Shown here one piece after another: positions 3 to 32,700 of a stretch of 64,000 nucleotides of DNA (position 1 is the stretch's first letter; each line of letters starts with the position of its first letter). A program made the position numbers and the translations under genes. The DNA is from an uncultured Pelagibacteraceae bacterium. Lineage in GTDB: Bacteria > Pseudomonadota > Alphaproteobacteria > Pelagibacterales > Pelagibacteraceae. The notes under the pieces are model-generated. The model saw only the letters and a program-made list of their open reading frames with translations, made no database searches and was not told the origin of the DNA. Location: NCBI GenBank assembly GCA_902576335.1, contig CACGVC010000001.1:62001-126000 (forward strand), written 5' to 3'.

Positions 3-407
3 ATAGGATCAATAATTGGATTAGTGCTTGTTTACTTTGTTAGATTCTATTCACTTGCATACAATGGGATAAAGTCAGGGTATGAAAAAATTAATATTGC
101 AGTTGATGAAAGTGCGTACTTACTTGGTTACTCAAAAAGAAAAACATTTACGAATATTCACGTTCCTTTTTTGAGAAATTCTTTGTTATTCATTATTATT
201 TTAGTTTCACTTGAAATCATAAGAGAATTACCAATAACATTGATTTTAAGACCCTTTAATTTTGAAACTTTTGCGACAACTGCTTATATTTCTGCATCAG
301 AAGACTTACTTGAAGCTGCAGCTGTACCATCATTATTTTTAATTTTAATTGCATCCTTTTTTATTATAATTGCATCCAAATATATTTTGAGAGAAAACAA
401 TGAATAA
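3..407 (+). CDS. Fe(III)-type ABC transporter permease, C-terminal part (truncated by window start)
   Basis: Frame stays open to the window edge upstream of the listed GTG at 24. Binding-protein-dependent permease features (YSKRKTFTNIHVPFLRNSL, RELPITLILRPFNFETFATTAY). Overlaps the downstream ATPase. Confidence 0.8.
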   Translation: MGSIIGLVLVYFVRFYSLAYNGIKSGYEKINIAVDESAYLLGYSKRKTFTNIHVPFLRNSLLFIIILVSLEIIRELPITLILRPFNFETFATTAYISASEDLLEAAAVPSLFLILIASFFIIIASKYILRENNE

Positions 408-4562: not shown

Positions 4563-5260
4563 AAAATTGGGACAACAAAACTTGGCTTTCATCATCGTCT
4601 TATATTAAATCATTTAATAATTTTTTATTAAAACAAGTTAAATTAAATAAAAACAGTCAGATTTTAGATATTGGTTGTGGTAGGGGTAAGATACTAGGAA
4701 GCTTGTCATCAAAGTTAAGCTTAAAGAGAAAATCTATAGGTATAGATATAGAAAATCACAATGATAGGGATAAAAGAATAATTTTTAAAAAAATTGATGC
4801 ACTTAAATTTTTAAAAAAGAATAAAAAAACATTTGATCTAATTTTAGTAAAACAAACTATTCATCTTTTTAAAATTAAAGATATTAAGACTATACTTAAA
4901 TTGTCGAAAACATTGTTAAATCCAAACGGTAAAATTATTATTTTTACTCTGGATCCCATTAATAACGAAATTCCAACATTTTCGATTATGAAAAAAAAGC
5001 TTAAAAAAGCGTTAATAAGAGACAAGAAAATTATTAAATCAATTTCATACTCATTCAAAGGAAAAATCGTTAGAGGGTTTAGTTATAAAGTTAAAATTTC
5101 AAAGAAAAAATATATGGAAATGGTAAATAGCAAATATATATCGGTGTTGTTAGGGATGAGCCATAAGCTAATATCTAGTGGTTTAAATGAAATAAAGAAA
5201 AAGTATAAAAAACAAATATCTTTTCAAGATAAATTGATTTGTCTAGTTTTGAATAGATAA
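4553..5260 (+). CDS. Class I SAM-dependent methyltransferase
   Basis: Motif I ILDIGCGRGKILGSL; SAM-binding Rossmann pattern. GTG start. Confidence 0.75.
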   Translation: MSLKNWDNKTWLSSSSYIKSFNNFLLKQVKLNKNSQILDIGCGRGKILGSLSSKLSLKRKSIGIDIENHNDRDKRIIFKKIDALKFLKKNKKTFDLILVKQTIHLFKIKDIKTILKLSKTLLNPNGKIIIFTLDPINNEIPTFSIMKKKLKKALIRDKKIIKSISYSFKGKIVRGFSYKVKISKKKYMEMVNSKYISVLLGMSHKLISSGLNEIKKKYKKQISFQDKLICLVLNR

Positions 5261-5274
5261 ATTAACAAAAAAAT

Positions 5275-5320
5275 TTAGGGGTTTGCTCTCTAGTTAATTA
5301 ACCAAAAGAGCAGCCCCTAA
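5275..5320 (-). terminator. Intrinsic terminator
   Basis: Minus strand TTAGGGGcTGCTCT...AGAGCAaACCCCTAA followed by ATTTTTTT. Confidence 0.65.
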
Positions 5321-5397
5321 TTTGCCGTTCTGGCATTTAAGTCCGAATGGACTTTATATTTTTTATTTACGTTTTTATGAAGTACGAAAATACCCAG

Positions 5398-5424
5398 CTA
5401 AGTATCAGGTGGTGTTTGATTCAT
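5398..5424 (-). CDS. Possible 8-aa leader peptide MNQTPPDT*
   Basis: AAGGAGG SD (5433-5439) 8 nt before ATG; ATG AAT CAA ACA CCA CCT GAT ACT TAG. Confidence 0.35.
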   Translation of the reverse strand: MNQTPPDT

Positions 5425-5461
5425 TAAAGCTACCTCCTTAATTAAAGATTAAATTTTGATC

Positions 5462-5520
5462 AGGTTGTATTCAATAAATTTATTTAAATTTTCTGAAAAT
5501 ATATTTCTTGAATACAACCT
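5462..5520. repeat. 13-bp perfect inverted repeat
   Basis: AGGTTGTATTCAA (5462-5474) and TTGAATACAACCT (5508-5520), 33-nt loop. Confidence 0.8.
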
Positions 5521-5614: not shown

Positions 5615-5794
5615 GTGAAATATATTAATGGAATAGTAAAATTATTCTTAAGTTTATTAGTCTCTACCATAATTATTTATGCAATCAATATAGTTGCTGG
5701 ATTTGCTGGAGCGGATTATTCTTTCACCCATGGTGAAACTTTTGTCATTTGGATATTAATGGCAATATTAGTGAATAATTGTTTTAATAAATAA
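5615..5794 (+). CDS. Small (59 aa) membrane protein, GTG start
   Basis: Open frame KYINGIVKLFLSLLVSTIIIYAINIVAGFAGADYSFTHGETFVIWILMAILVNNCFNK*, two hydrophobic segments; below the ORF-track length cutoff. Confidence 0.5.
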   Translation: MKYINGIVKLFLSLLVSTIIIYAINIVAGFAGADYSFTHGETFVIWILMAILVNNCFNK

Positions 5795-10577: not shown

Positions 10578-10784
10578 TTAGCTTTTAAATAAAGCAAGAG
10601 CTTCATTCAAAAGTTTTTCAGACTTAGCATGATCACCATTATTATGGGCATCCATACCTTGATCTTTAAGTTCTTGAGCTTTTTTAATCTTTTCATCAAT
10701 ATTTTTAGCTAACATCGGACATGAACCTGCATATGCTGAGCTAACAAATAAGACCAAACAAAGCGTTAACATTATTTTTTTCAT
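10578..10784 (-). CDS. Small secreted protein, helical (TPR-like)
   Basis: Signal peptide MKKIMLTLCLVLFVSSAYA; DAHNNGDHAKSEKLLNEALALFKS. Confidence 0.55.
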   Translation of the reverse strand: MKKIMLTLCLVLFVSSAYAGSCPMLAKNIDEKIKKAQELKDQGMDAHNNGDHAKSEKLLNEALALFKS

Positions 10785-32623: not shown

Positions 32624-32700
32624 GGCGGGGTAGCTCAGTTGGTTAGAGCGCAGGACTCATAAGCCTGAGGTCAGTGGTTCGATCCCACTTCCCGCTACCA
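32624..32700 (+). tRNA. tRNA with CAT anticodon (elongator Met most likely)
   Basis: 77-nt cloverleaf: GGCGGGG acceptor, GCTC-AGTTGGTTA-GAGC D-arm, CTCATAA anticodon loop, AGTGG-TTCGATC-CCACT T-arm, encoded CCA; one A/G mismatch closing the anticodon stem. Confidence 0.9.

Follow-up and report, generated by a model that had tools for sequence, protein, structure and literature searches.

The question raised by this locus is whether a compact group of features on the minus strand of the window, which is the whole 64-kb stretch of DNA that was analysed, constitutes a gene in its own right and, if so, what its product might do. Read directly from the window sequence, the element consists of an inverted repeat, the sequence AAGGAGG, a mini-ORF, three hairpins and a T7 tract (Table 1). 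These features had been listed in an earlier sequence-only reading of the same DNA, and all of them are present at their minus-strand sites. The Shine-Dalgarno sequence is separated from the ATG by 8 nt. A methyltransferase gene on the plus strand ends at position 5260 and is convergent with the element, which bears out the earlier remark that no ORF lies downstream on the minus strand.

Table 1. Positions of the element's features and of its divergent neighbour within the window.
Feature	Position	Strand	Basis or remark
Inverted repeat, distal arm AGGTTGTATTCAA	5508-5520	minus	Sequence; the plus strand reads TTGAATACAACCT, the would-be -35 region of a divergent promoter
Inverted repeat, proximal arm TTGAATACAACCT	5462-5474	minus	Sequence; 13-bp perfect match to the distal arm
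-35 hexamer TTGAAT	5469-5474	minus	Within the proximal arm; promoter pattern kept in relatives
-10 hexamer TAATCT	5446-5451	minus	17 bp 3' of the -35; promoter pattern kept in relatives
Shine-Dalgarno AAGGAGG	5433-5439	minus	Predicted 5' end of the RNA; mostly NNGGAGG in relatives
Mini-ORF MNQTPPDT*, 8 aa (ATG AAT CAA ACA CCA CCT GAT ACT TAG)	5424-5398	minus	In-frame ATG and conserved C-terminus; excess of third-position substitutions
Hairpin 1, AAGTCC-ATTC-GGACTT	5354-5339	minus	Covariation across relatives
Hairpin 2, TGCC-AGAAC-GGCA	5335-5323	minus	In most relatives; sequence mostly invariant
Hairpin 3, GC-rich, GGGG-(internal loop)-GCUC ... GAGC-AAA-CCCC	5320-5275	minus	Covariation across relatives
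T7 tract 3' of hairpin 3	5273-5267	minus	Terminator-like in the window genome; not conserved across relatives
Divergent 59-aa membrane-protein-like ORF, GTG start	5615-5794	plus	Common neighbour in relatives, dispensable to the element; no Pfam match

The sequence AAGGAGG is depleted on both strands of the window, where dinucleotide shuffles predict 5.4 occurrences, and the single one seen belongs to this element. The pattern formed by AAGGAGG, an ATG, 3-9 codons and a stop is also seen once, against 0.4 expected by chance per window. Thus, the association of a strong Shine-Dalgarno with a short frame is by itself unsurprising, and conservation has to decide whether the element is real. The predicted RNA without the inverted repeat folds 3.9 SD below dinucleotide shuffles, and the sequence that includes the repeat folds 6.1 SD below shuffles.

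A DNA search of relatives identifies eight genomes of this genus with clear homologues. An exact 18-mer search of 387 genomes of the class returned only one further homologue, again from the window's own genus; that criterion was too strict, and covariance models were used instead. The first model (R1) finds one copy in each of 147 of the 398 genomes of the order, and the widened models find one copy per genome in 130 of 297 genomes (R2) and in 82 of 155 genomes of the order (R3). The comparison across SAR11 genomes that had been proposed from the window alone thus reveals a conserved element, which R3 detects in 80 of 152 near-complete genomes of the order and which occurs in four genera (three by R3, plus g281 by R1 and R2). 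About half of the near-complete genomes carry no detectable copy, and the element is therefore dispensable. When R3 is run over 388 genomes of the class, matches occur only in the SAR11 family and in none of the 383 other genomes, and the 80 named records among the matches listed are all Pelagibacteraceae or Pelagibacterales. The six weak R3 matches that were inspected in same-genus genomes without a copy showed no element. These comparisons indicate that SAR11 (Pelagibacteraceae) carries the element as a free-standing RNA gene in single copy. One copy, L078 (G548:C6:25787-25936), looks decayed, as its promoter, Shine-Dalgarno and start codon are lost and its hairpins are partly kept.

A promoter of the form TTGANN-16..18-TANNNT, scored within the last 55 nt 5' of the Shine-Dalgarno, is found in 95.5% of 133 distinct upstream regions, while only 4.7% of shuffles contain it. 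Across relatives, 5-9 nt separate the end of the -10 from the Shine-Dalgarno (13 nt in three cases), and the RNA should therefore start at the Shine-Dalgarno or a few bases from it. The sequence-only reading envisaged a transcript of about 250 nt. A length of about 170 nt is predicted instead, because the proximal arm of the inverted repeat holds the -35 and the repeat is therefore upstream promoter DNA; as a segment of the RNA it was rejected. In 144 of 153 instances the core of the distal arm, GGTTGNATTCAA, occurs no more than 130 nt upstream, and this arm is also kept in lineages that have no near divergent gene (L252 and L249). The repeat looks like two divergent -35 elements placed about 45 bp apart. 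The sequence TTGAATACAAC was considered as a genome-wide regulon motif and rejected, as it has 1-5 copies per genome, near the reversed-pattern control.

At the 3' end, the GC-rich hairpin 3 and the T7 tract have the form of a Rho-independent terminator in the window genome. Only 61 of 125 homologues have a strong U-tract (at least five T in 8 nt) after hairpin 3, and the terminator proposed earlier is therefore retained for the window genome but not as a trait of the family.

Covariation supports the secondary structure model at hairpins 1 and 3. In a model-fitted alignment of 43 sequences (A7), 97.5% of the cells are paired, versus 44-71% when partners are slid one or two columns either way (63-71% for one column). 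Two-sided changes are present at 11 of the 17 pairs, and in 500 column shuffles no case equals the real alignment. An independent MAFFT alignment (A5) gives similar values, with 96.8% paired and two-sided changes at 10 of 17 pairs. Within A7, hairpin 1 is paired in 100% of cells and has two-sided changes at four of its five pairs, while hairpin 3 is paired in 96-97% of cells and has such changes at 7 of 12 pairs. Hairpin 2 is found in most relatives and is nearly invariant, so that there is little opportunity to observe covariation. Of the three hairpins for which a covariation test had been proposed, the first and third are therefore seen to covary by comparison, and the second gains little support. 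The linker and the hairpin loops are not conserved in sequence. In nearly all members, a pairing could form between the GGAGG of the Shine-Dalgarno and the CCnCC of the Pro-Pro codons; both sides are otherwise constrained and hardly vary, and we consider this pairing a possibility only.

All 135 distinct instances in a set gathered by a pattern that fixes PDT-stop carry an in-frame ATG 3' of the Shine-Dalgarno (for example MNQTPPDT, MLILSPPDT, MLRITPPDT, MKTPPDT and MNLSPPDT). The mini-ORF is 6-9 aa long across relatives, a range that excludes the following tally of 45 hits, in which some ORFs have an internal Met. Among these representative model hits, for which the peptide ending was used only for ORF placement, 45 of 45 have an in-frame ATG after the Shine-Dalgarno and a frame ending M-x(n)-P-[DE]-[TI]-stop, comprising 35 PPDT, 5 PPET, 3 LPDT and 2 PPEI endings. 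Only the last 3-4 residues are kept; the start of the peptide and its length are free to vary. On a tree derived from the downstream sequence only (about 120 columns), the last four sense codons need a minimum of 19 changes at their four third positions versus 3 at the eight first and second positions. The chance that at least 19 of 22 changes fall in one third of the sites is about 4e-7, a figure that assumes equal rates and is drawn from related sequences. This excess recurs in distant clades, and the stop codons TAG, TAA and TGA interchange among relatives. An Asp-to-Glu change in the motif is present in two genera: g280 has ATG TCA CCA CCT GAA ACT TGA, which encodes the 6-aa peptide MSPPET, and g5 has MSPPEI. 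The third-position excess, the conserved C-terminus and the stop interchange suggest that the 8-codon ORF with its PPD, singled out earlier in the window, is translated, and they show that selection acts on its amino acids. There is one clade (L074-L077, from G574, G683, G716 and G649) in which the mini-ORF ends in LPDT and has one proline, probably because of an in-frame 6-nt deletion.

The promoter inverted repeat is among the longest invariant stretches, as would be expected if conservation acted only on DNA, whether as regulatory DNA or through neutral drift between close genomes, and if the RNA and the ORF were incidental. However, compensatory pair changes, codon periodicity, the interchange of stop codons and a layout common to four genera make this explanation extremely improbable.

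The same codon pattern bears on whether the element might be a plain base-pairing small RNA, in which target mRNAs would be bound by the C-rich CCnCCUGAYAC segment or by the hairpin loops, and the frame would serve only for ribosome protection. Such an RNA would fit a stand-alone gene with its own promoter and a strong 3' hairpin. In addition, CCnCCU is complementary to Shine-Dalgarno-like sequences, and many alphaproteobacterial sRNAs use C-rich anti-Shine-Dalgarno motifs. We nevertheless regard a plain base-pairing RNA as unlikely: conservation tracks codons, with third positions free inside the would-be seed and the amino acids kept, PPDT is replaced by PPET or PPEI in other genera, and neither the linker nor the loops are conserved in sequence.

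Perhaps the RNA is instead a minimal mRNA whose active product is the 6-9-residue peptide (or fMet-peptide), with the hairpins acting as a stabilizing 3' UTR and terminator. The strong Shine-Dalgarno at the 5' end, the coding selection at the C-terminus and the lack of a conserved antisense-like seed agree with this proposal, which we judge improbable given that only the last 3-4 residues are kept in a peptide whose remaining residues and length vary freely, and that hairpins 1 and 3 covary beyond the needs of a simple terminator.

The genomic neighbourhood offers a further constraint. Across 127 distinct loci, the next downstream gene is convergent in nearly every case. These genes come from many unrelated families, which by their sequences include methyltransferase, cytochrome-like, aminotransferase-like, symporter-like and FolD-like genes among others. 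The upstream gene is also variable, and there is no obligatory partner gene. Members of cluster C0, the 59-aa ORF of Table 1 for which there is no Pfam match, are the nearest upstream neighbour, in divergent orientation, in 53 of the 127 loci; this conserved ORF falls just short of the 60-aa cut applied to the ORF list. A co-oriented downstream neighbour is found only in L260 and a few other loci. In L260 (G573, 1220-1426) this neighbour, located just downstream of the element, encodes a protein of 68 aa (MKK...SAYAGSCPM.AKN...) that looks secreted and has no Pfam match, and a homologue is present in the window at 10578-10784 on the minus strand, 5 kb from the element.

Since the neighbours are variable and convergent, the element does not appear to be the leader of a downstream gene, but rather a stand-alone RNA. 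Its own promoter and these neighbours mark it, by sequence, as an independent transcription unit. The self-contained RNA gene proposed by the sequence-only reading is therefore upheld by conservation in relatives, by the promoter and by the lack of a dependent neighbour. A stalling leader peptide in the usual sense, also proposed there, is disfavoured, because the almost always convergent and lineage-specific neighbours leave it no gene to control. The succession of a mini-ORF, hairpins and a terminator-like hairpin does resemble leader-peptide attenuators, in which case stalling on the mini-ORF would control whether transcription continues beyond hairpin 3 into a neighbouring gene or antisense to it. 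Given the convergent neighbours from many unrelated families and a U-tract that is not conserved, we find such a cis-acting attenuator or terminator very unlikely.

There may be a second form of the element in another family of the order (G037-G060), where R3 gives one weak match (G039, E = 8.6e-4), the only weak match that proved informative. A DNA search finds the related element in 17 of the 24 genomes of this family with E below 1e-8. Its layout (L300-L316) comprises an invariant GTGGAGGTTAAAAAG followed by a 5-6-codon Pro-Pro frame inside a hairpin, together with covarying hairpins and a canonical terminator, and in several genomes it is flanked by the inverted repeat CCACGTTATCATCA / TGATGATAACGTGG. 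The peptides are MNPPA, MNPPT, MVPPTI, MVPPTV and, from a TTG start, MTPPTL, wherein the Leu codon varies among TTG, CTC and CTG. The copy in G045 has no early stop. We tentatively consider this second form to be homologous to the window element.

The conserved peptide ending suggests a role for ribosome pausing. In E. coli without EF-P, PPD occurs only at PPX sites that pause and PPE is likewise listed with the strong pauses, and most PPX sites do not pause (PMC4140641). EF-P is encoded in the window genome. PPD or PPE is conserved in the four genera, one clade has LPDT, and the candidate from the second family has PPT or PPA. The significance attached earlier to PPD as an EF-P-dependent pausing context thus stands insofar as PPD and PPE belong to the motifs at which E. 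coli ribosomes pause when EF-P is missing (PMC4140641). The LPDT clade, with its one proline, is the main argument against a strict need for Pro-Pro, and strong Pro-Pro pausing cannot be strictly required. This clade is a useful natural test of the Pro-Pro requirement.

The sequence of events that we consider most likely is as follows. The element's own sigma70-type promoter would transcribe an RNA of about 170 nt whose 5' end all but coincides with the Shine-Dalgarno. There a ribosome would load, make a 6-9-residue peptide ending in Pro-Pro-Asp/Glu-Thr, and stop about 40 nt before hairpin 1. Slow decoding of Pro-Pro-Asp/Glu, dependent on EF-P, or slow termination might then hold the ribosome on the 5' end, where it would protect the RNA and separate the Shine-Dalgarno from the CCnCC Pro-Pro codons with which it could otherwise pair. 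The amount or the fold of the RNA would in this way report on translation, and the RNA could act in trans via its 3' hairpins or a putative partner. The trans-acting role is a guess, and the most likely one because nothing lies in cis.

We therefore favour, with slightly less than even confidence, a small RNA, dual-function or ribosome-coupled, whose stability, folding or activity is set by a 5'-end pause at Pro-Pro-Asp/Glu; here the pausing, the ribosome-coupled folding and the trans-acting output are what we infer. The label of dual-function sRNA, suggested when the window alone had been read, remains the best one for a conserved stand-alone gene with a mini-ORF under coding selection. A more specific proposal, which is possible though rather doubtful, is that the element is a SAR11 RNA sensor of translation. 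Its input would be the decoding speed of a 6-9-codon frame ending PP[DE][TI], and limiting EF-P, slow termination or amino-acid supply would pause a ribosome at the 5' end, which would decide the stability of the RNA and its trans-active fold. In the second family of the order there may be a related version with 5-6 codons and Pro-Pro. If this sensor proposal is true, the mini-ORF would rank with the shortest conserved frames known from bacteria.

At the gathering threshold of Rfam 15, the window has a single match, a tRNA at 32624, and at relaxed thresholds the best matches at the element locus are unrelated families far below threshold; the Rfam check suggested earlier thus matched the element to no family. 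In HTCC1062 the element is located at 762687-762859 on the minus strand, within the intergenic region 762678-763012 between SAR11_0785 and qacH; in genome G449 it spans 673,873-674,031, also on the minus strand. Table 1 of Meyer et al. 2009 includes the HTCC1062 region but assigns no RNA to it, and its 76 BLAST hits fall short of their cut of 200 (PMC2704228). Their structured RNAs of 'Cand. Pelagibacter ubique' comprise the rpsB, rpsL, ffh, SAM-V, rhtB, pntA, bablM and SAR11_0636 elements, and while these motifs are likewise SAR11 structured RNAs, none of those named sits at this locus (PMC2704228). The covariance model now covers the region that was flagged in 2009 and left blank. None of the openly readable papers found on SAR11 small RNAs describes the element, and it could be an unnamed entry in lists of putative sRNAs.

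SAR11 are among the commonest marine bacteria. Their genomes are streamlined and have few transcription regulators (PMC13198564), and their median intergenic spacer is 3 nt (PMC5069961). Such genomes would probably not keep a structured intergenic RNA of about 170 nt, with its own promoter, unless it were of use. In this family a very short frame, whose coding is backed by evolutionary evidence, is joined to a structured RNA without a downstream gene, which makes a single ribosome pause on a stand-alone RNA directly testable as a bacterial signal.

Comparison with known systems helps to place the element, which we file as new, of the dual-function or peptide-coding small RNA kind, with a putative function. 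It shares with the EF-P-dependent PPX pauses the PPD and PPE motifs, which are strong in an efp deletion, and a polar A-site residue (PMC4140641). However, known pauses of this class lie inside ordinary proteins (PMC4140641), whereas in the element the motif makes up essentially all that is conserved of the ORF and the pause is a presumed one. The element also has features in common with stalling leader peptides, namely a very short ORF, a conserved C-terminal motif by the stop and hairpins that follow. Leader peptides of this kind include TnaC, MgtL, ErmCL and SpeFL, from which the element differs by having no conserved downstream gene and a neighbour that is almost always convergent. Dual-function or peptide-coding bacterial sRNAs include SgrS/SgrT, Spot 42/SpfP, AzuCR and RNAIII. 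Like these, the element appears to be a small transcript that stands alone, is driven by its own promoter and combines a 3' hairpin with a short ORF on which coding selection acts. Its ORF is far shorter than theirs (6-9 codons) and differs further in its location at the extreme 5' end, its near-perfect Shine-Dalgarno and its conserved Pro-Pro-Asp/Glu end.
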